A model generated the notes under the pieces. The model saw only the letters and a list, made by a program, of their open reading frames with translations. It was not told the origin of the DNA and searched no databases. Source: Hexactinellida sp. DTS-2022 (taxonomy: Eukaryota > Porifera > Hexactinellida). Taken from it: a DNA stretch of 64,000 nucleotides. The stretch is from contig JAPNXP010000009.1 in NCBI GenBank assembly GCA_028753945.1, forward strand, positions 1,798,001-1,862,000. The letters run 5' to 3'. Each line of letters opens with the position of its first letter. The stretch's first letter is position 1. The position numbers and the translations under genes are program-made. Shown one piece after another: positions 799-36,244 of the stretch.

Positions 799-3069
799 AT
801 GCTGTCAGAAGACAGTGCACACTACATTAGGTCTGTGACAGCCAAGCACTATGAAGAGGGTCAGAACCTGTCCGGGATAGGCAGCTGGGTCCTGGAGAAG
901 CTGGGCATGAAGCGGTCGGATTACGTCATACTGATCCTGCTCACAGTGGTGGGGAGCTATCTGTTCAACATGAGAGACAGAGTCTCGCTGCAGCCCGCCT
1001 TCTTCCAGCCCATTCAGACAGACCTGTATAGCAACGACTACTACCCACAGGCATGGGAGCGGGTCAGCCGTCCCTTGGTGACAGACCTGGAGAGCGACGG
1101 GGAGAACGAGGTTATCCTCTCTTTCCCAAACGGACACATCGTGGTCGCTAAGTTCGCAACGGTTACCCCGGAGGCAGACTATCCCCTCCCGCGCCTGGAG
1201 AAGATATTCGAGACCAGTCTCTCCTCCCCGGACGGGGCCCGCAGACACGCCCTCTCTGTGGAGACGGGGTTCTTGGAGCCGTATCTGGGCATGGGCCAGG
1301 TGCGGCGACAGGTGATAGCCGTGCTGACTAACGACAGCCACGTGTTCCTCTTCTCTGCGGACCTGAAGCTGCTCTGGTCCCGCGCGCTGGGGGGCGTGTC
1401 TCTCGCGGGCGAGCAGCGCCTCTATCTGAGGGAGTCTTCCCTCCTGGTGCTCTCGCACCCTCTGCAGGAGGGGGACCTGGGCGCCGTCGTGGTGGGCGTG
1501 GCTCTGGGGGTCCGCGACGGGTCCGCGCCCGGCGGCGACGCGAAGGTGGAGGAGAGTCTGTACCACTTCTCTCTGTTCGCGCTGGAGGGGCGCTCTGGGG
1601 AGACTCGGTGGAGTCACGAGCCCGGGGACTTCGAGGTGCGCCGAGAGAGTCCCTTTCCCAACTTCCGACACTTCAAGTTCGACGCCCAGTGGAGCTCCAA
1701 GCATCGGGGGGAGCGCCACTGGGGCGAGTACAAGAACGCGTTCCGCAGCGCGCTCCCCTACAGCTGGTCCAGTCCGTACGACTCGAGACTGAGGGTGGAC
1801 AGGGTGGGGCCCCCCAGGTCCAGAGAGGCCAGTCCGGGGGAGGACTTCAAGTACCGCACCCTCCTCGACCTGGACCAGGAGTACGTCGCCGGTCTCCTGT
1901 TTGGGGGCCTCAAGCCCCACTCCCCCTCGGAGCGCGTGGCTAGTCCGGACGCTATTTTCCTGTACTCCGAGAAACAGGTGCAGCTGGTGGAGCTTTCCTC
2001 CGGACGGCCCCTGTCCGCGCTGGAGCTGATGCCCGGGCCCGTCTCCGTGGGGGACATCTCCGGGGACGGGGAGATAGAGGAGCTGCACGTGGAGCTGCAC
2101 CCGGGGGACGCGGGCGAGAAGAAGCGCGCCGAGGAGGCGGAGAAGTGGCTTACGATGAAGAATGAGTTTGAAGTGTGTCGCGGACAGGTGCACACCCTGA
2201 CCGGGAGCGCGCGTCAGTTCGCGTGGGAGGGGGAGCTCTGCTCGCACCCGCACGGCATAGACAACCTCGCGAGTGCCTTCGCGTCCCGCGTGACGATATC
2301 CCTGCTGGACCTGGCGCAGCTGCTGGGCTACGAGACTCGCGTGCGCGAGCAGGAGCGCTCCATCCAGCAGCTTAAGCTGCAGCTCTGGGGGGAAAGGGAC
2401 GCGAATGTTCGCGAGCTGCAGGGGCTGCCCCCGCTGCTGGTCCCCTCCACCCACTACTCGCACTCCCCGCTCAGGCTGCACTTCACAAAAACCATGAGCA
2501 GCAACTTCCAGGTGGGAGGGGCCACCAGCTATGACGTCATATTCATCCTCTCGAATGGCCGCGTGACTAGTTTCGGCCCGGAAGGGCACCTCAACTGGCA
2601 GACCTATGTGACCACTGGCTGGGGCGACGCCGTTAGGTTCCGACTGGGATACGCCAACACGCCGCCCCACGGGGAGCAGGGCCTCCTGGCGCACGTCTTC
2701 GTGCCCCACGCAGTCCCCCTGAGCCTGCTCTCCTACGGGAGACAGACGCACCTGCTGCTGGCCGGACAGAGCGACCTGTCCCTGGTCTCTCTGGAGGACG
2801 GGGCCGTCGAGAGCGAGCTGGACCTCCCCTGCGCCCCCGTGGCGCCTAGCGTCGTTGCGGACTTTGACAGCAACGGAGTTAATGACGTCATTGTCATGTG
2901 CAGGGACAACTATATAGGATTCCGATTGAATCACACTTCTGGGAAATCTTACACTACCATGGTTACCTTCCTGATATCCGGTCTTGTTCTCGTTGTGTTG
3001 ATGCACTTCCGAGGCTCGTCTGTCCGTCCTAAGCAGGCAGCAGCCGGGAAGAGCAAGCGACAGGACTGA
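799..3069 (+). CDS. Membrane-anchored FG-GAP/VCBS-type beta-propeller protein, single exon
   Basis: 756 residues in one open frame. Residues about 42-57 (VILILLTVVGSYLF) form a hydrophobic segment near the N terminus, and about 721-737 (TFLISGLVLVVLMHF) form a second one followed by a short basic tail. Between them are integrin-alpha-like calcium-loop signatures: DLESDGENEVIL near residue 100, GDISGDGEIEEL near 415 and DFDSNGVNDVIV near 698. Such loops mark FG-GAP propeller blades. The C-terminal block (D-x-N-x-D/N loop, then a TM helix) resembles the plant DEX1 and ITFG/FAM234 architectures; this is a resemblance by eye, not a proven orthology. The likely site is the ER/Golgi or cell surface with a large lumenal or extracellular propeller. 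The start is the first ATG of the frame; an upstream coding exon cannot be excluded. The body is visibly GC-rich against AT-rich flanks. The stop lies 143 bp before the FUNDC1-like start. Confidence 0.75.
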   Translation: MLSEDSAHYIRSVTAKHYEEGQNLSGIGSWVLEKLGMKRSDYVILILLTVVGSYLFNMRDRVSLQPAFFQPIQTDLYSNDYYPQAWERVSRPLVTDLESDGENEVILSFPNGHIVVAKFATVTPEADYPLPRLEKIFETSLSSPDGARRHALSVETGFLEPYLGMGQVRRQVIAVLTNDSHVFLFSADLKLLWSRALGGVSLAGEQRLYLRESSLLVLSHPLQEGDLGAVVVGVALGVRDGSAPGGDAKVEESLYHFSLFALEGRSGETRWSHEPGDFEVRRESPFPNFRHFKFDAQWSSKHRGERHWGEYKNAFRSALPYSWSSPYDSRLRVDRVGPPRSREASPGEDFKYRTLLDLDQEYVAGLLFGGLKPHSPSERVASPDAIFLYSEKQVQLVELSSGRPLSALELMPGPVSVGDISGDGEIEELHVELHPGDAGEKKRAEEAEKWLTMKNEFEVCRGQVHTLTGSARQFAWEGELCSHPHGIDNLASAFASRVTISLLDLAQLLGYETRVREQERSIQQLKLQLWGERDANVRELQGLPPLLVPSTHYSHSPLRLHFTKTMSSNFQVGGATSYDVIFILSNGRVTSFGPEGHLNWQTYVTTGWGDAVRFRLGYANTPPHGEQGLLAHVFVPHAVPLSLLSYGRQTHLLLAGQSDLSLVSLEDGAVESELDLPCAPVAPSVVADFDSNGVNDVIVMCRDNYIGFRLNHTSGKSYTTMVTFLISGLVLVVLMHFRGSSVRPKQAAAGKSKRQD

Positions 3070-3212: not shown

Positions 3213-6185
3213 ATGTCAGAAGTGGACTCCCCAGGTGACGCCGTTATCCGCAGGAACACCGGAGAGGATCTCGCGGCAGAGCTGGCGGACCTCCCAGACA
3301 TCCTGCCCTATGACCCGCCCCCAGGGGACGTAGTGGGGTACACGGAGGGAGTTATAGGACTCATTTCTAGGCAGCACCCGTTTGCACAGCTGGGCATTGG
3401 CGTGGGTACCGGCTGGCTGTGCGGACTGGTTGGCCGCAAGGTCGGTACCTCGGTTCTGTTCCTCCTGGCCTCTGGCATCATCGTGCTGCAGCTGGCCAAC
3501 CACTCGGGAGTCGTACAGGTGTGCATGCTTATTCAACAGTTTTGTATTCAACTGCAAACAATTTGTCTACTCTTAAGTTTATAATGGAGACAACGCGGAG
3601 TCAACATTTATTCCTAATTGCCAAGTCCTATGTTCAGATTAAATAATTGAATACAAAACTCGTTTCCCAACAAGTTCGCTATTAAGCGCTTCCACTTTAT
3701 TAATGTTTGGTGTATACTAGCGCTTTTCGCGCATAACACAAATAGAACCTGTTTTTGCTAATATAAATGTCCTAAAAACCAAATCAGCACTTAAGGCGTC
3801 AAGTGAGAGAATGTCCTGAAATGGAAGTAAGGAATTTGCCCGATAATGGATCGCCAAGATATACAGTACATAATGGATATAGTGATAATGGTGGGGACAT
3901 GGGATTTCTTGGCCAAATTATCACTATAACCAATATCACTATATCCAATATATCACTATGTAGTTCCAATATTTCACTATATCCAATATATCACTATGTA
4001 GTTCCAATATTTCACTATATCCAATATCACTATATTCATTATGTACTGTAGGCTGTAGCTAACTTCTTCAAATCTTATCTGATCAACTTATAATCACCAG
4101 AGTTAAACTCAGAGTTAAAATTCCAGCAATTTCGCACTTCATTATCATTCGAACTACTTCCCCTTTTCATTTTCAATTTCATTTCTCATCCTAACGAGCG
4201 GTTCATTTACTACTCCCCTCATCAATCTAGATCATTTGCACATTTGAAATCATAATCAGAATATCATCCGAAGAGACAAACTTTAAAATAATAGCTATAA
4301 AATTATAAATACTTTTATTAAATCGTTTTAATTATCGTTGTTCATCCACACTTTCGTTTATTTTATGCTATCCATCTGAGCCTCTATGATTCCCACTTGC
4401 GATTGAATGCTCCAGGCATTTAACATCAGACTACACTGTCGGTTTTACAGTTGCATCTATCAGCTATTGGATTTCTTCTCGAGCCAATTGAATTTTCAGA
4501 GGAACTCTTCTTTCCTTTGTAGAAATCGCTTTTCTTTTTGACCCCACCATACATGATGCAACTTTGTTGTGTGTAACATTGTTGCATCGTGTATGGTGGG
4601 CTTAAGGTTGTTGATTTTCGCCTGATAGAAATGTTGTTTCCCTATAAATGTTATATTGGTTGTAAAGAGAGTATTTAGCTATTTACAGGATATTTGGATG
4701 TTTAAGTTAATTTTCCTTTTAACAGGATCCTACAACGTCCTTGCACCGTCATTCTATTTACATTTTGGAAAAACGTATAAATTATATGCTTCTATGATCG
4801 AATCTATTGTTAATTAAGAACTAATTATAAAGTATTAGCCAGGTAGAGACTTGTCAAATACCTTCGAACAAGAAAGTTGCTGTTGGAGTACACTTGTAAC
4901 GGAAACCTCACTAATGGAGTTAGAAATTATATCTATTTCTTTGAGACCTTTGGGAAGAGTTATGAACAATCAACGATACAACAGTCTTCCTAATCTTTAC
5001 CAAAGTAAAATTATCAAAATTTGTTTATCTACCTCAGGGCCGGTGGAAGCAGTTATAAAGTGGTCAGGCCATGGCTTGACCGGCCTAACTAGTGACGTAA
5101 GAGTGGTCAGGCCATGGCCTGGCCGGCCTGACCGCTTCCGCCGCCCCTGTACCTTTGAGATGCAAATATAATTTTCTGGAATAATATACTACATACGTAA
5201 TTTGTAAGTTAATCAACAAACAGAAAATGTTCAAGAAAATGTTGATTATCAATGTGAGAGAGAAATTATTATTACAGTATATTTATATTCGTATTTCCTA
5301 TAAGCCAACCATAAGAAGTTCATTAACAAACACAGTATGGGACAAAAGAATATGCTTGTTGGAAGTTGAAATAATGCACGAATAGAAATGTATTGGATCT
5401 TAGTTAGAAATTACCAAACCTGTACTTTATTGTGGAAATTCTCGGAATAGTAAGCAAGAAAAGAATTATATTTGCACGGACTAATTGTAGAACGAGAATG
5501 AGAATAATTAAGTTACGGATTACGCATCTTAACTTAAGATTTTTGAGATGGTTCTTATAAGATTCCTTATATAGCATTTGCTGTGGAATCCTCTTTATTT
5601 CTCGATGCAGTTTGTATCTCCTCCGCATGTAATACACTAATACAAATAGCGCAGATATTTGTATTCAAGTAAACTAACAAATGAAGTATTTATAGAATTT
5701 ACTTATCCACCGATCATCGGCGTTTGTATTAAATAAGCTGGCTAGTTTCTACCGATGGTGTTTTTTTATAAACATAAAAAAACAATCGGTAGAAAGTAGC
5801 GAGGTTTTTTAATACAAACGCCGATGATCGGTGGATAAGTAAACTCGTATTTATATTACGTATTGGAAAAACGTGGGTGAAAATTGAGCTTGAAATATTT
5901 CATTATCTCTCAAGATATTGTATTATACCCTCGTAACAAAACAATTCAAATTCCCTTGTCCTTTCTTATGATTATATTGAGAATGTCCTATAGGTTAACT
6001 GGGGCCGTGTCGGCGAAGCTGTTAACACTGCCTACCAGGACCAGCAGCTAGGCCAGCCCTACCTGCAGTCTCCCACCTCGCTGCTCTTCAGACTGCGAGC
6101 AAACAGACTCTGGCAAGCTATGTCCAAACACAGCTATCTCAACACTGGACTCCTGTCTGGAGTTTTACTCGGATTATCTATCTAG
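3213..6185 (+). CDS. FUNDC1: FUNDC1/2-like outer mitochondrial membrane protein (2 exons)
   Basis: Exons are 3213-3518 (102 codons, phase 0; donor CAG/GTGTGC) and 5994-6185 (63 codons plus stop; acceptor ATAG/GTTAAC). The 165-residue product matches FUN14-domain proteins (human FUNDC1 is 155 aa): a Gly-rich TM segment GIGVGTGWLCGLVGRKVG, a second TM GIIVLQLANHSGVVQ running across the splice junction into VNWGRV, and a C-terminal TM ending GLLSGVLLGLSI. FUN14 proteins act in mitophagy and at ER-mitochondria contacts. The N-terminal cytosolic part (residues 1-45) has no obvious aromatic-x-x-Leu LC3-binding motif like the YEVL of mammalian FUNDC1, so the LC3 role is uncertain here. The 2.5-kb intron holds at least four inverted-repeat elements. 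Assignment to FUNDC1 rather than FUNDC2 or a pre-duplication form is open. Confidence 0.85.
3863..4050. repeat. Inverted-repeat element with internal tandem repeat
   Basis: In the FUNDC1-like intron. Ends tacagtacataatggatata (3863 on) and tatattcattatgtactgta (to 4050) are inverted copies. The interior contains two copies of a roughly 40-bp unit with atcactatgtagttcc and tttcactatatcc, at about 3945-4020. Probably a small non-autonomous transposon with an expanded internal repeat. Confidence 0.6.
4542..4602. repeat. Short hairpin MITE, ccaccatacacgatgc family
   Basis: Arms ccccaccatacatgatgcaa and its near complement ttgcatcgtgtatggtggg enclose about 20 bp. The same terminal sequence brackets a longer copy at 60958-61229, so this is a short member of the same family. 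Confidence 0.6.
5035..5149. repeat. MITE with CAGGG termini and TACCT target duplication
   Basis: Inverted ends cagggccggtggaagc and gcttccgccgcccctg enclose inverted copies of ggtcaggccatggc. The element is flanked on both sides by TACCT (5030-5034 and 5150-5154). It sits in the intron of the FUNDC1-like gene. Confidence 0.7.
5697..5845. repeat. Foldback element
   Basis: The left arm from tttacttatccaccgatcat to about 5762 is inverted at about 5787-5845, with atgatcggtggataagtaaa at the outer end. The loop is only about 25 bp and rich in T and A runs. Intronic. Confidence 0.7.
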
Positions 6186-11012: not shown

Positions 11013-12231
11013 ATTTCATTTCTATCTAAATATTCTTCTTCTCCATTATTCTATTTTCTAATTACGACCTCGATGTGTGAGCCCTACACTCCACCTTCAA
11101 ATTACAGCTCAGATTCTAAAGAATGCACCGCACAAGAATCTGAAACAGGAGATTCCTTTCTCCAGGACCATATGGCCCCAAACCTGACAGCCCCGGGTGG
11201 CCCCAATGTTACCATTTCTGGCGTCGTGCCAAGTAATAGGGACGCGGTAGCTATTGCTGACCATTATGCCTCCCGCACCCCGGTCGGGCCTTCCCCGAAT
11301 TTGGTGCCCGGTAACTCCCTGCATTATTGCAGGCATTCAAAGGACTGCAGCAGTCCATGACAGTGATCACTGACCAACTAGCTGCTCAGGCTCCCACCCT
11401 AAGCCAGGAAGTGCAGCTTCAGACGGAATCTATGACGATTGCCGAACCTCCTGTACAAATTGCAGTCCAATCTGCCCAACCCATTTCCTTCTTTGACCCC
11501 AGTGGGCTTGTGGAAAAGAAATTCTTTGCCGGTGCACCGGATAACATATGTGCTTACCTCACTAAGCACTTCTCACATTCATTGGACTCTGAGCATCGAA
11601 TTGAGATGGCTAAGCGGTACAAAAGGCCGGACATCTCTGCTATGAGAGTCCATAAGCTAGACTCACATTTTCAAAAACGAGATTTCGGATTTGTAAAAGC
11701 TCGTGACGAAATACTAAAGGAAATCCAGCGATCTACATTGCATACGGTTGGCCCCTTGTGCGAACTAATCAAGTATGTGAAGGTCATATAATTACTCAAG
11801 ACCAAATGGTGGAGTATGCATCAGCGACTCTAGTTCTACTTGGTGCCACCACCACTAGAATCCTACTGGCCAGAAGGAAAAACGCAATCAGGGCAGTAAA
11901 CCCGGCATTAGTCAGCGAGGTAGAGTCTCTCCCCCCTGATGAGCAAACAAACTTTGTCTTTGGTCCCAACAACCTAAAAACCCTCATTGAAACTCAGAGG
12001 GACCGGTCTACCTTTGAGAAACTAGCTGCAGAACGTCCAGCTAAGAGGCAAAAATCAGACAACGAATCTTACTACAACTCTCGTGAGAATACTGACTTCA
12101 AACCGAACCAGTTTTTTCGGAGGGGCTCCACAGGAGGCACGGGCTTCAGTGGGGCCGATCAGAGGAAATCCCGAGTATCATACCCCAGAAGGCCATACAG
12201 GGGCAACACCTCTGGCAACTACAGGCACTAA
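10998..12231 (+). pseudogene. DIRS gag-like region, frameshifted
   Basis: Three overlapping open frames (10998-11360, 11327-11791, 11758-12231) together cover the expected gag position between the left repeat and RT. The middle frame carries FFDPSGLVEKKFFAGAP and a helical segment with HFQKRDFGFVKARDEIL. The last frame ends in a basic, Arg/Gly/Asn-rich tail (FRRGSTGGTGFSG, YPRRPYRGN) typical of nucleic-acid binding at the gag C terminus. Frame changes near 11340 and 11765 break the protein. The likely role was the structural protein of the retrotransposon particle. The assignment rests on position and composition. Confidence 0.6.
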
Positions 12232-12254
12232 TCCCTCTAAGCCTGCTCGACTTA

Positions 12255-14186
12255 ATGTCGCCTCCGCCCGTCGAACCACCAATGACGGGACGTCTGCCCT
12301 ATTTCTACCACAACTGGGCTCTAATATCCCCGGGGAGCAACATCTTGGCATACGTAGAGGGCCTTATTCTACCCCTAGCATCAGTACCGACTATGGCACT
12401 GCGAACCAACAAACTTCCAAAGGAACAAACTGTCCTTGTACGCCAGGAAATAGAGAGGCTACTCACTATCAAAGCCATTCAACGCACACAAAACCTAGGG
12501 TTCACGAGCCCGATTTTCTTACGCAAGAAATCTTCAGGCCATTGGAGGCTAATCCTGAACCTCAAACTCCTCAACAAATATCTTTCCCCTCCACACTTCA
12601 AGATGGAAGGCATTCAGTGTGTCCGATACATAATCACACAGGGAGACTATATGACCAAAATAGACCTAAAAGATGCTTACCTGACAGTTGCTGTCCATAC
12701 GGACTCCCGCAAATACCTCCAGTTCGAATGGGACAACGTACTGTATCAATACACAACAATGCCCTTCGGACTGAGCATCGCACCCTTTGTCTTTACCAAG
12801 ATCATGAAACGCCCGGTTGCAATCCTCCGGGGCTGGGGTGTGCTACTACTCGTATACCTGGACGAGATGTTAATAATTGCTCACAGTCCGAATACAAGCG
12901 CTCTACATACCCACTGGGTAATCAAAATGCTCTCACAACTGGGTTTCATTGTCAATCGGGAGAAATCTATATTAACCCCGAATCAGGTCATGGAGTTCCT
13001 AGGCTTTACGGTCAACACAACCACCATGACATTCCAACTACCACTGTCGACACTAACAACCATCAAAACGAGATGCAGAGCTATGATACGCAATCCTACG
13101 TGCACGGCTCGCCAGTTAGCAGCCCTACTAGGTCTACTGAGTTTTTCGAAAACTGCCATCAGTCCAGCACCTATATTCTACCGATCAATTCAATTCGAGC
13201 TCATACGAGCCCTCCACGCCTCCGAAGGCTATTACAATCAGTCGATTTCGCTGGGACCTCAGGCCCTATTAGACCTGAAATGGTGGACATCCAGTTCAAC
13301 AGCTTGGAATGTGTCCCCTATCCTGAAACGGAATATCGACAATACTATGCAAACCGACGCATCCCTCACTGGATGGGGAGTAGTATGCAGGGAGCAGAAA
13401 GCGTCAGGACCCTGGTCACAGCAAGAGAAACAGCTCCACATAAACGCTCTAGAGCTGAAAGCTATAATGTTTGTGATCACCCTGTTCTCCAAACCCAACA
13501 CACACGTACTAATTCAGACCGACAATCGCGCTGCAATCCGCTACATAAACAAGCTGGGAGGCACCCACTCCCAAACCCTCTGCAGCCTATCCCTCCAGCT
13601 ACACAAGTTTGCGATATCCAACAATGTCGCTCTAACTGCAGAGCACCTACCTGGGGTAGAAAACATAGAGGCGGACAAACTATCCCGCCTCCCAAACCAG
13701 GATTGGAGCGACTGGAAACTGTTGCCCGAGATATTCAGGTGGACTTTACAGCAGGTGAAGCTAGAACCGGAGATGGACCTATTTGCCTCTCGACTGAATA
13801 CCCAGCTTCCCAGGTTTATGAGCTGGAGACCAGAACCGGGAGCAGTAGCAGTGAACGCATTTGTACACAGTTGGACGAATCTGACATGTCCATACCTGTT
13901 CCCACCAATGATATTGATTGGCCGAGTCCTAACCAAGCTTCGCCTGGACGAAGTGAGTAAGGTAATCTTAATTGTACCCAATTGGCCCTCAAGACCTTGG
14001 TGGCCTGTGCTACTACAGTCCCTGATACAAGAACCAATTCACCTACCACAACTTCCGAATCTGCTCACGGATGTAGAGGGCAACCTTCATCCTCAAATTT
14101 TATCCAAGAGGATGAGCTTACTAGCATGTGTAGTATCAGGGACTTGCTCATCGCAAGAGGTGTCTCTGAACGCTCCAGTGACATAA
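12255..14186 (+). CDS. DIRS reverse transcriptase-RNase H polyprotein (probably inactive)
   Basis: 643-residue open frame. RT motifs in order: SPIFLRKKSSGHWRLILNLK (fingers), YMTKIDLKDAYLTV (motif A, catalytic Asp), TMPFGLSIAPFVFTKIM, and VYLDEMLII (catalytic box, residues about 201-208), where the second aspartate of the usual YLDD is glutamate. RNase H follows with MQTDASLTGWGVV, HINALELKAI, IQTDNRAAI and LPGVENIEADKLSR. The C-terminal part (MDLFASRLN, WPSRPWWP) is the segment commonly found after RNase H in DIRS and Ngaro elements. The Asp-to-Glu change in the active site, together with broken gag and recombinase, suggests a dead copy, although the ORF itself is uninterrupted. A second open frame overlaps it at 12083-13960. 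Confidence 0.9.
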   Translation: MSPPPVEPPMTGRLPYFYHNWALISPGSNILAYVEGLILPLASVPTMALRTNKLPKEQTVLVRQEIERLLTIKAIQRTQNLGFTSPIFLRKKSSGHWRLILNLKLLNKYLSPPHFKMEGIQCVRYIITQGDYMTKIDLKDAYLTVAVHTDSRKYLQFEWDNVLYQYTTMPFGLSIAPFVFTKIMKRPVAILRGWGVLLLVYLDEMLIIAHSPNTSALHTHWVIKMLSQLGFIVNREKSILTPNQVMEFLGFTVNTTTMTFQLPLSTLTTIKTRCRAMIRNPTCTARQLAALLGLLSFSKTAISPAPIFYRSIQFELIRALHASEGYYNQSISLGPQALLDLKWWTSSSTAWNVSPILKRNIDNTMQTDASLTGWGVVCREQKASGPWSQQEKQLHINALELKAIMFVITLFSKPNTHVLIQTDNRAAIRYINKLGGTHSQTLCSLSLQLHKFAISNNVALTAEHLPGVENIEADKLSRLPNQDWSDWKLLPEIFRWTLQQVKLEPEMDLFASRLNTQLPRFMSWRPEPGAVAVNAFVHSWTNLTCPYLFPPMILIGRVLTKLRLDEVSKVILIVPNWPSRPWWPVLLQSLIQEPIHLPQLPNLLTDVEGNLHPQILSKRMSLLACVVSGTCSSQEVSLNAPVT

Positions 14187-14449
14187 TATGCCAAAGTTGG
14201 AGACCCTCCACTCTAAAATCATACACTTCCGCTTGGAAAAAGTGGGTAACATATTGTACCCTTAAAGCAATCAACCACCTGAAACCCGACCTGTATGATA
14301 TAATTGCTTTCTTAACGGAATCTTTTGACTCACAGAAGTCAACTAGTTGGGTATCAAAATCTAGCCAATCTATTGCCACAGAGTCCTTCACTAGCGCAGT
14401 CTTATCAGAGCTACCTACTGTACCAGCTAGCGACGACTGCTACCGCTAG
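13982..14449 (+). pseudogene. Tyrosine recombinase N-terminal fragment
   Basis: The frame overlaps the RT end and carries a SAM-like core-binding region: LLIARGVSERSSDIICQSW, then RPSTLKSYTSAWKKW, as seen in DIRS tyrosine recombinases. The frame stops at 14449, only about 300 bp before the right terminal repeat. There is no room for the catalytic domain with its Arg-His-Arg-Tyr residues, so that part has been deleted. The enzyme would have integrated the circular DNA copy. Confidence 0.7.
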
Positions 14450-18139: not shown

Positions 18140-19165
18140 TTATTTTTTAACTTGATCAATTCCTAACATCTCTTCACTAAGTCTCCAGAGATTCTCCGCT
18201 TCTTTCTTGTTCACAAACCAGAGGAGAATACCTTCTGCGCAGTTTGTGAAGTATTTTCCGGATTTCCCTAACACTTTATCGGAGACAGCGCAATAAATAG
18301 AAGTCTGAGCTCCCTGAGTAGGGGATAGTAAAATATTCTTGATGAGCTTTATCCGAACCAATGGACTGATATTAGTAATTACAAATCCTGGATGTACGCT
18401 GTACGCCTCTACTTTCGAGTGTTGCAGTCTGTCAGCTAACTCAACAGTAAACAATACGTTGGCAAGCTTGCTTTTAGAATAATTAGCGAATATACCACAG
18501 CGAGAATTATCAGGCTTAACATTATCTGCCGTTAGATAGGGAGATCCTAATTTATGTACAATTGAGGAGACGTTGATAATCCTACTGGGAGCTGATTCCT
18601 TGATTCTGTCCAGGAGTAGGTTAGTCAGATAGAAAGGTCCCAAGTGATTTACACCGAACGCTAATTCAAATCCATCTGTAGTCACTCCAGGTGTACTGTT
18701 GAGAATACCTGCGTTATTGATGAGAATATCAATTCGTGTCTCTTCCCTCAACAGCTTCTCAGAGAACTCTCGAATCGAGACCTTACTACCAAGGTCAATC
18801 TGTCTGTAGAATACAAGGTCGCTACCTGACTCCTCTCGCAGGTCTCTCTCAGCCCGTGTGCCCCTCTCCTCGCTCCTACAGCCGATGATTACCCTGGCAC
18901 CTCTCCTAGCCAGGGCAAGAGCTGTGGTATACCCGATCCCGCTATTCCCGCCTGTCACAATAGCGGTTTTACCGTCCAATCTCTTTACAGGGAGCTTGTC
19001 CCCTGCAAGGAATAGATCAAACAGGTGTCCGTAGACCAGGGTGTGTAGGATTATAGATGCGGGTACAAAGGCTAGCCAGAGGGAGGGGAGAGGAACGAGT
19101 AGGAAGAGAGGGATAATGCAGAATAGAATGAACTCTGCGATGAATACGATGCTTAACACGACCAT
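18140..19165 (-). CDS. Membrane-anchored short-chain dehydrogenase, RDH11-14-like, copy 1
   Basis: 341 residues, single exon, start ATG at 19165. Residues about 5-48 are hydrophobic and provide a membrane anchor. The Rossmann motif TGGNSGIG is at 71-78 and CRSEER at 96-101 (an Arg typical of NADP(H) binding). NNAG is at 150-153, the catalytic Ser in NVSS at 200-201, and YSKSK gives the catalytic Tyr229 and Lys233. This matches microsomal retinol dehydrogenase/RDH-like SDRs, which oxidise or reduce retinoids and lipid aldehydes with NADP(H) on the ER. The substrate cannot be read from sequence. It is transcribed divergently from copy 2, with 766 bp between start codons. All active-site residues are present, so it is likely functional. 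Confidence 0.88.
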   Translation of the reverse strand: MVVLSIVFIAEFILFCIIPLFLLVPLPSLWLAFVPASIILHTLVYGHLFDLFLAGDKLPVKRLDGKTAIVTGGNSGIGYTTALALARRGARVIIGCRSEERGTRAERDLREESGSDLVFYRQIDLGSKVSIREFSEKLLREETRIDILINNAGILNSTPGVTTDGFELAFGVNHLGPFYLTNLLLDRIKESAPSRIINVSSIVHKLGSPYLTADNVKPDNSRCGIFANYSKSKLANVLFTVELADRLQHSKVEAYSVHPGFVITNISPLVRIKLIKNILLSPTQGAQTSIYCAVSDKVLGKSGKYFTNCAEGILLWFVNKKEAENLWRLSEEMLGIDQVKK

Positions 19166-19931: not shown

Positions 19932-20966
19932 ATGGTTGTTCTAAACAACATATTCATCGCAGAGATTATTCTATTCTGCATTATCCCTCTCTTCCTACTC
20001 GTTCCTCTCCCCTCCCTCTGGCTAGCCTTTGTACCCGCATCTATAATCCTACACACCCTGGTCTACGGACACCTGTTTGATCTATTCCTTGTAGGGGACA
20101 AGCTCCCTGTAAAGAGATTGGACGGTAAAACCGCTATAGTGACAGGCGGGAATAGCGGGATCGGGTATACCACAGCTCTGGACCTGGCTAGGAGAGGCGC
20201 CAGGGTAATCATCGGCTGTAGGAGCGAGGAGAGGGGCACACGGGCTGAGAGAGACCTGCGAGAGGAGTCAGGTAGCGACCTTGTATTCTACAAACAGATT
20301 GACCTTGGTAGTAAGGTCTCGATTCGAGAGTTCTCTGAGAAGCTGTTGAGGGAAGAGACACGAATTGATATTCTCATCAACAACGCAGGTCTTCTCAACA
20401 GTACACCTGGAGTGACTACAGATGGATTTGAATTAGCGTTCGGTGTTAATCACTTGGGACCTTTCTATCTGACTAACCTACTCCTGGACAGAATCAAGGA
20501 ATCAGCTCCCAGTAGGATTATCAACGTCTCCTCAATTGTACATAAATTAGGATCTCCCTATCTAACGGCAGATAATGTTAAGCCTGATAATTCTCGCTGT
20601 GGTATATTCTCTAATTATGCCAAAAGCAAGCTTGCCAACGTATTGTTTACTGTTGAGTTAGCTGACAGACTGCAACACTCGGGAGTAGAGACGTACAGCG
20701 TACATCCGGGATCTGTATTTACAAACCTCGATCCAATAATTCAGGCGAGCCTCCAGAGTTTACTTAGGATGATTTTACTATCCCCTACTCAGGGAGCTCG
20801 GACTTCTATTTACTGCGCTGTCTCCGATAAAGTGTTAGGGAAATCTGGAAAATACTTCACAAACTGCGCAGAAGGTATTCTCCTCTGGTTTGTGAACAAG
20901 AAAGAAGCGGAGAATCTCTGGAAACTTAGTGAAGAGATGTTAGGAATTGATCAAGTTAAAAAATAA
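19932..20966 (+). CDS. Membrane-anchored short-chain dehydrogenase, RDH11-14-like, copy 2
   Basis: 344 residues, single exon. Same layout as copy 1: N-terminal anchor, TGGNSGIG, NNAG, NVSS and YAKSK active site. Residues up to about 200 are almost identical to the other copies, including at synonymous positions. The segment after the active site (HPGSVFTNLDPIIQASLQSL) differs, and identity returns from LLSPTQGA onward to the C terminus. The variable segment corresponds to the substrate-binding and lid region in SDRs, so the copies may differ in substrate. It stands head-to-head with copy 1. Confidence 0.88.
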   Translation: MVVLNNIFIAEIILFCIIPLFLLVPLPSLWLAFVPASIILHTLVYGHLFDLFLVGDKLPVKRLDGKTAIVTGGNSGIGYTTALDLARRGARVIIGCRSEERGTRAERDLREESGSDLVFYKQIDLGSKVSIREFSEKLLREETRIDILINNAGLLNSTPGVTTDGFELAFGVNHLGPFYLTNLLLDRIKESAPSRIINVSSIVHKLGSPYLTADNVKPDNSRCGIFSNYAKSKLANVLFTVELADRLQHSGVETYSVHPGSVFTNLDPIIQASLQSLLRMILLSPTQGARTSIYCAVSDKVLGKSGKYFTNCAEGILLWFVNKKEAENLWKLSEEMLGIDQVKK

Positions 20967-22648: not shown

Positions 22649-22684
<36 letters not shown>

Positions 22685-22803
22685 GAGGATGTCCTCATAT
22701 CGCAAAAACTTGTCCTCGTATCTATAGATGTGAGGACAAAAACTTGGATATGAGGACAAAAATTTGGATATGAGGACAAAAACCGGATATGAGGACATTT
22801 ACC

Positions 22804-22838
<35 letters not shown>
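22649..22838. repeat. GT-microsatellite cassette, copy 1
   Basis: A 126-bp core (22681-22806) is flanked on both sides by (GT)n. The core starts gcaggaggatgtcctcatat and ends atatgaggacatttacctgc, so its ends are inverted. It contains about four degenerate 20-bp units of gatatgaggacaaaaa.ttg. The same core, identical by eye, is at 36024-36149, again between GT tracts. Confidence 0.8.
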
Positions 22839-25832: not shown

Positions 25833-26867
25833 ATGGTCGTGTTAAGCATCGTATTCATCGCAGAGTTCATTCTATTCTGCATTATCCCTCTCTTCCTACT
25901 CGTTCCTCTCCCCTCCCTCTGGCTAGCCTTTGTACCCGCATCTATAATCCTACACACCCTGGTCTACGGACACCTGTTTGATCTATTCCTTGTAGGGGGC
26001 AAGCTCCCTGTAAAGAGATTGGACGGTAAAACCGCTATTGTGACAGGCGGGAATAGCGGGATCGGGTATACCACAGCTCTGGACCTGGCTAGGAGAGGCG
26101 CCAGGGTAATCATCGGCTGTAGGAGCGAGGAGAGGGGCACACGGGCTGAGAGAGACCTGCGAGAGGAGTCAGGTAGCGACCTTGTATTCTTCAGACAGAT
26201 TGACCTTGGTAGTAAGGTCTCGATTCGAGAGTTCTCTGAGAAGCTGTTGAGGGAAGAGACACGAATTGATATTCTCATCAACAACGCAGGTCTTACAACT
26301 AGTACACCTGGAGTGACTACAGATGGATTTGAATTAGCGTTCGGTGTTAATCACTTGGGACCTTTCTATCTGACTAACCTACTCCTGGACAGAATCAAGG
26401 AATCAGCTCCCAGTAGGATTGTCAATGTTTCCTCTGTCGCACACAAAGTATCCAATCCTTATCTAACTGCAGACAATGTTAAGCCTGATAATTCTCGCTA
26501 TAGTATATTCTCTAATTATGCCAAAAGCAAGCTTGCCAACGTATTGTTTACTGTTGAGTTAGCTAACAGACTGCAACACTCGGGAGTAGAGGCGTACACC
26601 GTACATCCAGGACTTGTATTTACAAACCTCAATCCAATAAATGAGCCGAGGCTCAAGAGTATACTTAGGATGATTTTACTATCCCCTACTCAGGGAGCTC
26701 GGACTTCTATTTACTGCGCTGTCTCCGATAAAGTGTTAGGGAAATCCGGAAAATACTTCACAAACTGCGCAGAAGGTATTCTCCTCTGGTTTGTGAACAA
26801 GAAAGAAGCGGAGAATCTCTGGAGACTTAGTGGAAAGATGTTAGGAATTGATCAAGTTCAAGAATAA
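25833..26867 (+). CDS. Membrane-anchored short-chain dehydrogenase, RDH11-14-like, copy 3
   Basis: 344 residues, single exon, with anchor, TGGNSGIG, NNAG, NVSS and YAKSK. Closest to copies 2 and 4 over the first 190 residues. It differs in SVAHKVSNPY after the catalytic Ser and in LVFTNLNPINEPRLKSIL. About 90 bp before the ATG (atgcgatttctacc, ccaattttaggattgaccaa, gataccatgctatcgatagc) are shared with copy 4. The promoter was therefore duplicated with the gene. Confidence 0.88.
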   Translation: MVVLSIVFIAEFILFCIIPLFLLVPLPSLWLAFVPASIILHTLVYGHLFDLFLVGGKLPVKRLDGKTAIVTGGNSGIGYTTALDLARRGARVIIGCRSEERGTRAERDLREESGSDLVFFRQIDLGSKVSIREFSEKLLREETRIDILINNAGLTTSTPGVTTDGFELAFGVNHLGPFYLTNLLLDRIKESAPSRIVNVSSVAHKVSNPYLTADNVKPDNSRYSIFSNYAKSKLANVLFTVELANRLQHSGVEAYTVHPGLVFTNLNPINEPRLKSILRMILLSPTQGARTSIYCAVSDKVLGKSGKYFTNCAEGILLWFVNKKEAENLWRLSGKMLGIDQVQE

Positions 26868-30201: not shown

Positions 30202-31221
30202 ATGGTCGTGTTAAGCATCGTATTCATCGCAGAGTTCATTCTATTCTGCATTATCCCTCTCTTCCTACTCGTTCCTCTCCCCTCCCTCTGGCTAGCCTTT
30301 GTACCCGCATCTATAATCCTACACACCCTGGTCTACGGACACCTGTTTGATCTATTCCTTGTAGGGGACAAGCTCCCTGTAAAGAGATTGGACGGTAAAA
30401 CCGCTATAGTGACAGGCGGGAATAGCGGGATCGGGTATACCACAGCTCTGGACCTGGCTAGGAGAGGCGCCAGGGTAATCATCGGCTGTAGGAGCGAGGA
30501 GAGGGGCACACGGGCTGAGAGAGACCTGCGAGAGGAGTCAGGTAGCGACCTTGTATTCTTCAGACAGGTTGACCTTGGTAGTAAGGTCTCGATTCGAGAG
30601 TTCTCTGAGAAGCTGTTGAGGGAAGAGACACGAATTGATATTCTCATCAACAACGCAGGTCTTACAACTAGTACACCTGGAGTGACTACAGATGGATTTG
30701 AATTAGCATTCGGTGTTAATCACTTGGGACCTTTCTATCTGACTAACCTACTCCTGGACAGAATCAAGGAATCAGCTCCCAGTAGGATTGTCAATGTCGC
30801 CTCTGTCGCACACAAAGGAGGCTCTCCCTATCTAACTGCAGATAATGTCAAACCGGAGAATTCCAGCTGTGGTTTCTTCTATAATTATGGCAAAAGCAAG
30901 CTTGCCAACGTATTGTTTACTGTTGAGTTAGCTGGCAGGCTACAAAACTCAGGAGTAGAGGCGTACAGCGTACATCCGGGATTTGTTTTTACTAATATCA
31001 GTCCAGCGTACCAGGCCAGTGTTGTACAAATGGTTTTACTATCCCCTACTCAGGGAGCTCAGACTACTCTTTACTGTGCTCTATCTGACAAAGTGTTAGG
31101 GAAATCCGGAAAATACTTCACAAACTGTGCAGAAGGTTCTCGATTCTGGTTTGTGAACAAGAAAGAAGCGGAGAATCTCTGGAGACTTAGTGAGGAGATG
31201 TTGGGTGTTGATCAAGTCTAA
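30202..31221 (+). CDS. Membrane-anchored short-chain dehydrogenase, RDH11-14-like, copy 4
   Basis: 339 residues, single exon. N-terminal anchor and cofactor motifs match the other copies. The active site differs slightly: NVAS replaces NVSS (the second Ser is kept), and the catalytic pair lies in YGKSK. The post-active-site segment is the most diverged and about five residues shorter (HPGFVFTNISPAYQASVVQM), and the tail reads GSRFWFVNKKEAENLW. A polyadenylation signal AATAAA is at 31354-31359, 133 bp after the stop. Likely a functional paralog with altered substrate pocket. Confidence 0.88.
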   Translation: MVVLSIVFIAEFILFCIIPLFLLVPLPSLWLAFVPASIILHTLVYGHLFDLFLVGDKLPVKRLDGKTAIVTGGNSGIGYTTALDLARRGARVIIGCRSEERGTRAERDLREESGSDLVFFRQVDLGSKVSIREFSEKLLREETRIDILINNAGLTTSTPGVTTDGFELAFGVNHLGPFYLTNLLLDRIKESAPSRIVNVASVAHKGGSPYLTADNVKPENSSCGFFYNYGKSKLANVLFTVELAGRLQNSGVEAYSVHPGFVFTNISPAYQASVVQMVLLSPTQGAQTTLYCALSDKVLGKSGKYFTNCAEGSRFWFVNKKEAENLWRLSEEMLGVDQV

Positions 31222-31359: not shown

Positions 31360-31523
31360 GGCTTGTTGATTTGTTTGTTGGTACGAACTGTAGGTTTGGG
31401 GCAGACATTGTTAATGAGTAATACTAACCGAACTATACCACTGGTGCTGATAAATATACATATATGACAGTTTATTTATAAGGATTAATAATTTATCTAA
31501 ATATAGTTTGATATCTTCAATAG

Positions 31524-32463
31524 ATGCCATTGTTTGTCTCAGACAAGAAATTTACTAAATCAACTTATAAACCAAAGTTTTGTCAGAGAGAAGCTTGTGC
31601 TATTCAAGATTGCCTTGCATTACACCATTACAACCAGGTATGTGAGTGGAGTTTTCTAACCTGAATGCTAAAACTTATACAGATGCAATTTATAGAGTTG
31701 AAATTGAATGGTTATTTCTAACGGGTTTATAATTCAGTTGTAATTAATATAAGCACTGCAAAGCTGTTGATAATGTGAAAGTAGAATTTTATTGAAAACT
31801 GAAGTCAGTATTTGACCAAAAATGCAAGTAGGAATATGATCGAAGTATGTGTAGGTATTTGGAATTTGTTATAAATTTTGTCTACTAAAACATGGCACTT
31901 TTTAGTTTGGCACCTACTCTTACATAAGGGATTTGCTCACGCTGGGTTTGTAAAGGATATATATTCAACTGAATTACGTATTACGAGGCATGTCTGCCTA
32001 ATATGCCAGGACCAGTAATGGGAACAATTAAGATTTTATAGTTGAATACCAATTTTAACTTAATTCTTTAAAATCTAGGTTGCACACATATTTCAGGTTC
32101 ATTTTAGAATATGTAATAACTATTTAGCTAATACACAATCTATAAAATGTGGCTATGGATTTATCTATTTTTCGATCATTTTCCGACAATAGTAACTTTT
32201 CGAACAAATTCATTCTTATTCACTTTTGGTCAAATTACGAATAATATTAATACCTACAAATTCAAACCTAATTTTAGATCAAATTCAGACGACTCGTTCT
32301 AGCCTTGTTATATTATTTTGTTTACACAACTCTTGACACGAACTCATGTACATTCTATTAGAATAAGTGCGAGTCCGTAATTCGTCAGTTATACAACTGC
32401 TGTGACAAACTTACTGCTGAAGAGGCTGATTCATCTCCACACTGTTTTCAGAAGAGACAGTAG
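31524..32463 (+). CDS. CMC4: CMC4-like twin-CX9C mitochondrial protein (3 exons, one microexon)
   Basis: Predicted exons are 31524-31637, 31754-31774 (21 nt) and 32389-32463, all phase 0, giving 69 residues (human CMC4 has 68). Exon 1 encodes KPKFCQREACAIQDCLALHH with a CX9C pair. Exon 2 gives HCKAVDN, and exon 3 begins LYNCC and ends SPHCFQKRQ. The join restores a second CX9C and all seven cysteines of the CMC4 pattern (C, C, C, C, CC, C). Such proteins are imported into the mitochondrial intermembrane space by the Mia40 disulfide relay. The first and last exons are firm by homology. The microexon rests on one conserved Cys, intact frame and AAG/GTG boundaries, and its donor (GTGAAA) is weak. 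The stop is 9 nt before, and in frame with, the TMEM33 ATG. Confidence 0.75.
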
Positions 32464-32472
32464 CTATCCACA

Positions 32473-34451
32473 ATGGGAGCAGTAGTGAACACACTATTCG
32501 GTACCCGACAGGGGAATGCCGCGGGGACAGAGGGAAGGGAGGAAACTGAGCAGAGAAACGGATCCAGTATGTATTCAGAACAATAATTTATATACAAATT
32601 ATTTATAGACTTGCAACAATATTATACAAGCATCTAAGAATATCGACCAACACCTTTTCTAATGAAATTTCCAGGCACTGGCAAGGACATTTTACTATCA
32701 AAAAATTCACCTTTTGCGAAGCCGCCTTTTTATAATGAATAAGTGTTGGCCAATATATATATATACTATATAAGTAAGTCCTTATTGCTAATGCTTGTTC
32801 CAGGTACAGGGGATACCCAAGCGGATCGAACTCCATTCCAGAGTTACATGTCTACCCACTGGAACACAGTTATATATTTCGGAGCTAGGGCTTGCATAGT
32901 TTTGCTAGGCATTATGTATGTCCTGCAGTCTCTCGTTCAGGACTACTACTACTCACCAACAACATACTACCTCATCTTCCTCGTAGGTATTTACATCTTT
33001 GGTCTGTAGGAATGTTTACCCATTCACTCATAGTTGCTTTATAATGGGATACAGTGAAGCCGCTTAATCGGGACGCCTCGGGAGTAGGCATTTAGTCCCG
33101 TTTATCCGTTCTCCCGATTAACCGATATGCATAATACATTTTGATACGAATTGGTTTCAAAAGCCTCGTCCCGATTAAGCGGCTTCCACTGTATAAACAT
33201 TAATTAATTCCATTTGATTTATATATTTTTTTGTTCAGCATGCATAGTGAACTTATCAAGATTCTACACTCGCTACTCAAGTACCAACATTCGATTCTTC
33301 AGCAGAGAGTTCCTGCAATACTCAATGCTCGAGAAGTCATTCCTATCATTCGCCTACGCGTTTATGTTTCTCAAGAGCTACCCCACCCTCCCACTGGCTA
33401 TACCCATTGTTCTCACTGCTCTAGTTAACATGGCTTTATTCACGAAACAGGTCGTCCAGCTCCTCTCTCCTCAGATGCGCCCTACGGTGACCAAGTTCAC
33501 TCAGCTGATCACTTCCCATCAGGATCAGCTGATGAGGATCAGTGCCGTAGCAGAGATTTGTTCCCTCCCAATAACTGTGCTGCACATGACGTCTGGACAC
33601 GCTTCCATCTTGCAGCCTTTCCTATGCTTCACTTATTTGAAGGTACAGCCTACTCCGCTTAATTGGGACACGTTCGTTTCAGGCCTCTTGTTCCAATTAA
33701 GCGGAGTTCCCAATTAACCGAAAATTATAGTAAGTAGCGATCTAGTAGCTAGTAGCGATTTTAAACTATTTCAGTTTATAACCTGTTACAACAATTCCTC
33801 CACTGCCTGCGGACCATTGAGGCCCTCACACCCATTGTATGTGCCTTAATTAATATTTGTGGACTGTTTGGAATTATCCGTGAATCACAAGGTCATAATC
33901 TATGGTAAATTGCGATTTTACGGAAATCAATAAGACAATAAACCCTATTTATATATTTTGTTGTTGTACTTTTATCAGAATTGATCAATATAATTTTAGA
34001 ATTTGTTCTGATCAAAATATTAACTTTCTATTGAGCGAGCACTATTTGGAACCCAATTTGTTGAGTTTGTCCCGATTAACCGAAATTTTTAGTATTAGCT
34101 TCTTTGGAAAAGATTTGGTTCATGGGGAGTTGTCCCAATTAAGCAGGTGTCCCGATAACTGGTGTCCCAATTAAGCGGAGTCTACTGTTCATTGAATAGA
34201 TACCTGTAGGTGTTACTATTGTGCGGTTAACTAATAGCAGTATTAAATTTTGTTATTTTGTTTAGCTCCGTGTTGCCTCGGGATCTAACCCATACATTCT
34301 ACACAATCTACAGGGGTTGGAGATGATGTTCATATCTCTGGGCAATCATCAATACTGTCCAGCTCTTCTGTCTCGTCTTATCCATGGTTCCATATACTAT
34401 ATCGGGAAGATCTGTTCTATCCAACAGGTACCTGTACAAGGCGCGCGTTAA
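32473..34451 (+). CDS. TMEM33: TMEM33 / Kr-h2 family ER membrane protein (4 exons)
   Basis: Exons are 32473-32566, 32804-32986, 33239-33642 and 34266-34451, joined in phases 1, 1 and 0, giving 288 residues (human TMEM33 has 247). Family blocks are FLSFAYAFMFLKSYP, ALFTKQVVQLLS, ISAVAEICSLPITV, SGHASILQPFLCFTYLK and, across junction 3, LRVASGSNPYILHN. Several TM helices are evident in exons 2 and 3. TMEM33/Pom33 proteins shape tubular ER with reticulons and act near nuclear pores and in the unfolded-protein response. Introns 2 and 3 contain pogo-like MITEs; the one in intron 3 begins within the splice donor. The first 31 residues are polar and lineage-specific. AATAAA is at 34644-34649. Confidence 0.9.
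33052..33191. repeat. Pogo-like MITE in TMEM33 intron 2
   Basis: CAGTGAAGCCGCTTAATCGG at the left and its near-perfect inverse ending GGCTTCCACTG at the right, with TA at both flanks (33050-33051, 33192-33193). Confidence 0.8.
33646..34187. repeat. Pogo-like element filling TMEM33 intron 3
   Basis: Left end cagcctactccgcttaattg and right end caattaagcggagtctactg are inverted, with further copies of the same terminal motif at about 33690-33720 and 34070. TA precedes the left end and forms part of the splice donor GTACAG. Confidence 0.65.
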
Positions 34452-34805
34452 GTCTCTTCTCTTAGTTATGCTACACTCTAGTTGTTGTATATGTCACAGG
34501 CTATTATAATGTAATGTTTGGTTATCTGCTTTGTGTGAGTTTAATAGGAAATTATTAGTTGGGCTTATTTCTGAGGAAGGAAGTACTGTTAGCTTGGAGG
34601 TCTCCTAACATAAGGAAATTAAAGTGTGTTATGTCTAACATTAAATAAAATTGAGGTTTACATATGAATTAGGTGATATTTTTGTATTCCCAAGTGATTA
34701 GGATTTTATCAATTTTACTTTTAGTATTTGTCATGTGCAGAGCCCAATATTATAAGTTTTGTTAATGTTTATTTATAATAAAATGTTAAATAGCTGGTTA
34801 GGAAG

Positions 34806-35723
34806 ATGCTCACAGAACTATTGTACTTTATTGGTTTACTGATTGTTTGTAAGTTCGTATTGAGTACCGTGTGCCGTCTCATAAGGTGCTTCTACGTGTT
34901 CTTCTTGTCAGGAACTGCGGACTTCAAGAAGTTCGGTAAATGGGCGGTAGTGACAGGCGCTACAGACGGCATAGGCAAGGAATACTCGGAGCAGTTAGCC
35001 GAGAAGGGAATGTGTGTTGTTCTAGTTAGTCGCACTATGGATAAGCTAGAGACTGTAGCATCACATATCGGGGAGAAGTATGGCGTAGAAACGAAGGTGA
35101 TCGCAGTAGACTTCTCACGAACTGACATCTATGCTCAGCTTACGTCAGAGCTAAGTGGACTGGACATAGGCGTTCTGGTTAACAACGTAGGAATGTCATA
35201 CGAGCATCCACAGTATTTCCATGAAGTCCCTGCGGAGAGGGTAGAGGGTGTGTTGACTGTGAATGCACTCTCTCTAGCAGAGATGACGCGTATCGTGCTA
35301 CCTCGCATGCTGGAACGCAAGAAGGGAATTATCATCAATATCGGATCGATGGCAGGCGATATGGTTATCCCACTTCTTGCTGAGTACTCAGGATCTAAGG
35401 CATTTGTTAGCTTCTTCACCAGATGCATCCAATACGAGTACAGGGATAAACCGTCTGTCATTATACAGTATGTAGCACCTGGAACTGTGGCTACTAAAAT
35501 GGCTAAAATTCGTCCCAGGTTATTCGTTCCCTCTCCCAAATCCTTTGTGAGGTCTGCACTTAAATCAGTAGGGAAATTACCCGTTACTACTGGTTGTTTT
35601 GCGCACGAATTACAAGATCATTTATCAATGTTAATTCCAGATTTTATAAAGCTTCGAATAATCTCTTCTGGTGCTATTGCAATCCGAGCTAAAGCCTTGA
35701 AGAAGAAAGGAAAAACCCAATAG
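34806..35723 (+). CDS. HSD17B12: HSD17B12-like 3-ketoacyl-CoA reductase / 17-beta-HSD, copy 1
   Basis: 305 residues, single exon. N-terminal hydrophobic anchor (LLYFIGLLIVCKFVLSTVC), TGATDGIG at 50-57, NNVG at 126-129, catalytic Ser181 (IGSMAG), Tyr194 and Lys198 in YSGSK. The C terminus KGKTQ fits a KXKXX ER-retrieval signal. HSD17B12/LET-767 enzymes carry out the second step of very-long-chain fatty-acid elongation on the ER (NADPH reduction of 3-ketoacyl-CoA); the related HSD17B3 reduces sex steroids. The family fit is good, but orthology between HSD17B12 and HSD17B3 is not resolved. Copy 2 lies 3.4 kb downstream in the same orientation. Confidence 0.87.
   Translation: MLTELLYFIGLLIVCKFVLSTVCRLIRCFYVFFLSGTADFKKFGKWAVVTGATDGIGKEYSEQLAEKGMCVVLVSRTMDKLETVASHIGEKYGVETKVIAVDFSRTDIYAQLTSELSGLDIGVLVNNVGMSYEHPQYFHEVPAERVEGVLTVNALSLAEMTRIVLPRMLERKKGIIINIGSMAGDMVIPLLAEYSGSKAFVSFFTRCIQYEYRDKPSVIIQYVAPGTVATKMAKIRPRLFVPSPKSFVRSALKSVGKLPVTTGCFAHELQDHLSMLIPDFIKLRIISSGAIAIRAKALKKKGKTQ

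Positions 35724-35851: not shown

Positions 35852-36244
<393 letters not shown>

Follow-up and report, generated by a model that had tools for sequence, protein, structure and literature searches.

Neighbouring CMC4 and TMEM33 genes meet in one exon of a glass sponge genome and may be expressed from a bicistronic mRNA

We analysed a stretch of 64,000 nucleotides (the window, G000:C18:1798001-1862000) from the genome of the glass sponge Hexactinellida sp. DTS-2022, which comprises 112.4 Mb on 18 contigs. Positions 31524 to 34451 of the window contain two conserved, unrelated genes which are nine nucleotides apart and meet in one exon (Table 1). The upstream gene encodes a CMC4 protein of 71 amino acids that is obtained by splicing of two coding exons. 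The codon immediately 5' of its ATG is an in-frame TAG, so that CMC4 cannot start before 31524 unless splicing adds an exon from further upstream. The spliced protein matched the Pfam family CMC4 (PF08991), including its cysteine motif, over residues 20-67 (E 3.6e-15, 56.5 bits, cut-off 28.9), and human CMC4 (PDB 1hp8) could be aligned to residues 19-54 (E 1.1e-6), free of gaps over the splice junction. Codon log-odds of the two exons in their own frame were -19.3 and -7.3, in each case the second best value. Since these figures do not make the exons stand out, the assignment of CMC4 rests on homology. A search of the sponge's own genome disclosed three weak single-exon matches to CMC4, all of them below the cut-off; two were the exons of the gene described here (E 3.4e-4 and 0.0104), and the third lies elsewhere on the same contig (E 0.011).

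Table 1. Features of the CMC4-TMEM33 locus (positions within the window)
Feature	Positions	Strand	Remarks
CMC4 coding exon 1	31524..31637	+	38 codons; donor CAG|GTATGT
CMC4 intron	31638..32361	+	724 nt; TATAAA at 32141; candidate site of a separate TMEM33 promoter
Shared exon	32362..32566	+	205 nt; 33 terminal CMC4 codons with the stop, the nine-nt gap, and 94 nt of TMEM33 from its ATG on
CMC4 coding exon 2	32362..32463	+	stop TAG 32461-32463
Acceptor-like string ctgttttcag	32442..32451	+	within the CMC4 coding sequence; nine nt lie between it and the stop codon
Inter-ORF gap CTATCCACA	32464..32472	+	nine nt, in frame
TMEM33 coding exon 1	32473..32566	+	ATG context CACA-ATG-G
TMEM33 coding exon 2	32804..32986	+	donor 32987 picked by us among in-phase models
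TMEM33 coding exon 3	33239..33642	+	holds the Pfam TMEM33_Pom33 match
TMEM33 coding exon 4	34266..34451	+	stop TAA 34449-34451
AATAAA 3' of TMEM33	34644..34649	+	probable poly(A) signal for both genes; further ATTAAA at 34618 and 34640

The downstream gene, TMEM33, consists of four exons coding for 288 amino acids, with introns of 237, 252 and 623 nt. The open frame around exon 3 alone already gave 65.8 bits with the TMEM33/Pom33 profile PF03661 (cut-off 24), and the gene was the only match in the own-genome search. Its first exon has a GC content of 0.56 (0.30 in both the CMC4 intron and TMEM33 intron 1), reads best of all six frames in its own one (codon log-odds +22.8, next 10.9) and splices in phase to exon 2. 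Translation of TMEM33 could also begin at one of the Met codons of exon 2, or the gene may use a different first exon. No relative of TMEM33 was found by sequence among solved structures at E 0.1. In non-animal collections, which are silent on the conservation of the gene pair, bacterial and archaeal genome contigs yielded no confirmed TMEM33 relative, and viral contigs and plasmids no CMC4 relative. Introns 2 and 3 of TMEM33 contain related inverted repeats (33056-33075/33167-33186 and 33637-33671/34162-34196), whose arms are 20 nt long with 100% identity and 35 nt long with 83% identity, respectively. As extended by the search tool, the left arm in intron 3 covers the end of exon 3 together with the 33643 donor, which would fit a donor, or an entire intron, brought in by a mobile element.

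A second tight pair on one strand was identified in the window, where the gene of a 756-residue protein (799-3069) is followed after 143 nt by the ATG of FUNDC1, a member of the FUN14 family, at 3213. The 756-residue protein, which we take to be FAM234-like, had no Pfam match, and neither AATAAA nor ATTAAA occurs over the 568 nt that follow its stop. Upstream of CMC4, four intronless short-chain dehydrogenase genes, one of them on the minus strand, are located at 18143-19165, 19932-20963, 25833-26864 and 30202-31218 (DNA identity approximately 91-95%), while two genes of another short-chain dehydrogenase type follow TMEM33 at 34806 and 39135 (93%). The overlapping long frames at 12096-14446 resemble reverse transcriptase and a tyrosine-recombinase-like protein and are read here as a putative element of the DIRS/Ngaro type. 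A block of 187 bp occurs with 100% identity at 22650-22836 and 35993-36179, beside TG/CA microsatellites. Long single-exon genes are present in the window as well, in keeping with a glass sponge, and for Aphrocallistes vastus 12,409 single-exon transcripts beside 19,578 genes have been described (excerpt of PMC10282587).

Some features of the whole genome were also recorded. The homeodomain search gave 16 matches out of 21 candidates, and a motif scan detected the third-helix motif in 13 of the 16 loci. By our reading, domains of the Msx-, NK-, POU-, Six- and Islet-like kinds are among them, and a Hox domain is not; this would agree with a glass sponge. Another glass sponge, Oopsacas minuta, possesses 20 homeodomain proteins, among them one Msx and two NkX (excerpt of PMC10280926). 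For Wnt the genome search returned no match, without signal for any target, so that its absence is not established. Of two DIX matches, the better one resides in a coiled-coil protein that was read as DIXDC1-like and not as dishevelled; in O. minuta, both wnt and dishevelled are reported to be missing (excerpt of PMC10282587). The 200 kb inspected on contig C1 with regard to gene spacing contained few long frames, many of which resembled mobile elements, and were used for no rate. With 47 of 3180 candidates scored, at least two 5S rRNA genes exist. They are 48 kb apart on contig C7 (L002 and L003, at 1472-1696) and have only about 225 bp in common (93%). When the two loci were compared for a linked short repeat, their similarity was confined to these approximately 225 bp around the 5S gene.

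The preliminary description of the window had placed the TMEM33 ATG (32473) nine nucleotides behind the CMC4 stop codon and in the same frame, had noticed no acceptor between them and had concluded that, if the genes are co-transcribed, the last exon of CMC4 is the first coding exon of TMEM33. The spacing, the frame and the lack of an acceptor were borne out. The exon at 32362-32566 holds parts of both genes, and no AG occurs in the gap, which leaves no room for a trans-splice acceptor from the CMC4 stop to the TMEM33 start. The spacing is a structural fact and as short as in bicistronic genes, while the in-frame relation has a chance of one in three. Together with the sequence TAG-CTA, the common frame had also given rise to the idea that readthrough of the stop codon generates a CMC4-LST-TMEM33 fusion. 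Nothing else speaks for it, and we judge it very unlikely. The well-known context stimulating readthrough is UGA-CUA, and the destinations of the two parts would be in conflict, CMC4 being a mitochondrial and TMEM33 an ER membrane protein.

As the end of a separate CMC4 message, neither AATAAA nor ATTAAA was found from 32464 to 33936; the first canonical signals are situated at 33937, in TMEM33 intron 3, and at 34242. At the rates of the window (1.11 and 0.96 per kb) approximately three signals are expected in these 1473 nt and the probability of none is about 5%, coding stretches not being allowed for. However, the lack of a canonical signal is suggestive only, because three of 13 stops in the window (CMC4, the large protein before FUNDC1, and PRMT) are without one in 500 nt, the other ten having it. 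The ends of these 13 ORFs were set by us; four belong to SDR paralogues and one (P2X) is uncertain. PRMT, for which no canonical signal appears for 1155 nt, weakened the missing signal as strong evidence for one mRNA. Moreover, TMEM33 intron 1 contains the rarer signals AATAAT (32582), AATGAA (32661 and 32734) and AATATA (32752).

These rarer signals bear on the possibility of two overlapping tandem genes. TMEM33 would then be driven by its own promoter, located in the intron or in exon 2 of CMC4. The CMC4 transcript would stop at one of the unusual signals of TMEM33 intron 1 or else share the 3' end of TMEM33. The CMC4 intron is the longest of the four introns and carries a TATAAA, though such a motif is probably unremarkable for 724 nt at 70% A+T, and no canonical signal for a separate CMC4 message precedes 33937. 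In Drosophila, where release 6.04 lists 159 dicistronic pairs, 69 loci also give rise to monocistronic mRNAs for one gene and 45 to such mRNAs for both (excerpt of PMC4528330). Altogether, we regard tandem genes as possible, though rather unlikely.

A further proposal concerned the acceptor-like string inside the CMC4 tail, which, it was suggested, could serve as trans-splice acceptor for TMEM33, an operon being one of the proposed outcomes. The string does exist, and with a generic acceptor matrix it scored 3.66, slightly below the TMEM33 acceptors (4.35, 5.16 and 3.8), the value of CMC4's own acceptor being -1.87. Within the window, 2.1% of 7895 AG sites reached at least this score, and the probability of one such site in any 100 nt was 0.11. 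Its significance did not stand, as 51% of random synonymous recodings of CMC4 exon 2 scored as high at 32451. Thus, the string is probably a by-product of the CMC4 protein sequence that needs no function to explain it, and it was dropped as evidence for trans-splicing. The resolution of an operon failed for another reason: the site lies within CMC4, so its use would end CMC4 and destroy its message, and two mRNAs cannot be split off by it.

What spliced-leader trans-splicing at 32451/32452 could still produce is an SL-TMEM33 mRNA in which 21 nt precede the ATG behind the leader, at the expense of CMC4. A spliced leader of about 37 nt has been reported for a glass sponge, the group to which the host belongs, with predicted leaders in 4% of the long reads (excerpt of PMC10282587). 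In the other tight pair, the second gene, FUNDC1, is also preceded by an acceptor-like site (3.04, P 0.14), at a distance of 37 nt from its ATG, but so is the HSD-like gene at 34806, which starts 355 nt behind TMEM33 and has a site of 3.0 at 65 nt before its ATG; FUNDC1 is therefore not special. Given the recodings and the frequency of such sites, we consider trans-splicing at this position improbable. Still more doubtful is a two-way switch, in which use of the weak acceptor at 32361 would result in a bicistronic mRNA and use of the stronger one at 32451, in cis or with a spliced leader, mainly in TMEM33. If it were true, one splice choice would govern the balance between a mitochondrial protein and an ER membrane protein, with most or all of CMC4 removed whenever the acceptor at 32451 is used.

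The start contexts of the two genes differ. CMC4 has a weak context with T at -3 and C at +4, whereas that of TMEM33, with A at -3 and G at +4, is strong, and no further ATG occurs in any frame from one start to the other. Leaky scanning depends on features of this kind. Many starts in the window have T at -3 (8 of 14 listed starts including CMC4 and four SDR paralogues; 5 of 10 with paralogues counted once), which makes the weak CMC4 context weak evidence. Given the CMC4 protein, an ATG-free outcome has a probability of 0.40 when its own codons are shuffled and of 0.56 with the codon usage of 12 window genes, and across these genes 1130 of 4710 coding stretches of 222 nt (24%) are without ATG. 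AUG depletion, being expected in 40-56% of synonymous recodings, was hence dropped as evidence for leaky scanning; the ATG-free stretch permits this mechanism and is no argument for it. Upstream of CMC4, ATGs are present at 31414 and 31464, which would interfere with scanning if transcription starts upstream of them. In sum, the anatomy permits leaky scanning and does not demonstrate it.

A bicistronic mRNA might alternatively be translated mainly by re-initiation or from an internal entry site. The nine-nucleotide spacing and the short first ORF suit both modes, and FlyBase curators hold that internal entry may be common in fly dicistrons (excerpt of PMC4528330). On the other hand, green-algal mutants are better explained by leaky scanning than by re-initiation (excerpt of PMC11892635), and as the main route to TMEM33 we give these modes little credence.

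Thus, of the proposals made in advance, the dicistronic mRNA is retained as the best reading of the shared exon and the spacing. We assign a probability of roughly one half to a single cis-spliced bicistronic CMC4-TMEM33 mRNA on which TMEM33 is reached by leaky scanning; from the DNA sequence we infer that the genes are co-transcribed, that scanning is leaky and that TMEM33 has no start site of its own. One promoter upstream of 31524 would drive a single pre-mRNA, from which ordinary cis-splicing would take out all four introns of the two genes, and the poly(A) signal 3' of TMEM33 (34618-34649) would terminate the transcript. The capped mRNA would contain the 71-codon CMC4 ORF, followed nine nucleotides behind its stop by the 288-codon TMEM33 ORF. 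Some scanning ribosomes would use the weak CMC4 AUG, while others would bypass it and initiate at the next one, that of TMEM33; re-initiation after CMC4 may contribute some of the TMEM33 product.

Known systems resemble this arrangement to a different extent. The mammalian MTCP1/CMC4 locus, which had been cited as a parallel, is similar in that CMC4 is encoded in one transcription unit together with a second protein, as is probably the case here. Its layout is different, as MTCP1 and CMC4 arise by alternative splicing of a common 5' part and not from two ORFs nine nucleotides apart in one exon, and its partner is unrelated to TMEM33. The operons of Ciona and Oikopleura have a very short spacing too, but their acceptor lies at or after the end of the upstream gene, whereas the candidate acceptor here is inside the upstream coding sequence. 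In Ciona, the median spacing of SL trans-spliced operons is 1 bp (excerpt of PMC7986045, on Ciona and Oikopleura). Like CMC4-TMEM33, Drosophila dicistrons such as stoned and snapin (named in the excerpt of PMC3372440) combine two unrelated conserved proteins. At loci with polycistronic transcripts only, -34 to 319 nt lie between the ORFs, a range that includes nine nucleotides, and small proteins are over-represented; unlike the sponge pair, the fly loci have cDNA or RNA-Seq support, and the excerpt of this account does not contain CMC4-TMEM33 (PMC4528330).

With the bicistronic genes of green algae the pair has in common a short ORF 1, a short gap, a weak first start, few or no AUGs in ORF 1 and a larger ORF 2. 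The differences are that it belongs to an animal, that it is known from sequence and that neither its AUG depletion nor its weak context is above chance. One of the algal ORFs 1 encodes TOM22, a small mitochondrial protein as is CMC4. In these algae, ORF 1 has medians of 357 and 291 nt and the spacing medians of 183 and 40 nt, and leaky scanning is supported in vivo, TOM22 being a tested ORF 1 without internal AUG (excerpt of PMC11892635). Our literature search did not find CMC4 together with TMEM33, and the pair was absent among the matches listed for sponge spliced leaders, operons and bicistronic mRNA. The arrangement is most likely a further bicistronic gene of a kind described in flies and green algae.

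Should the bicistronic mRNA prove real, a mode of producing two proteins from one nuclear mRNA as in algae and flies would exist in early-branching animals, in the same group for which a spliced leader has been reported. Gene finders may merge such paired genes or lose one of them. A real case would also allow us to ask how widespread bicistronic mRNAs are in compact sponge genomes.
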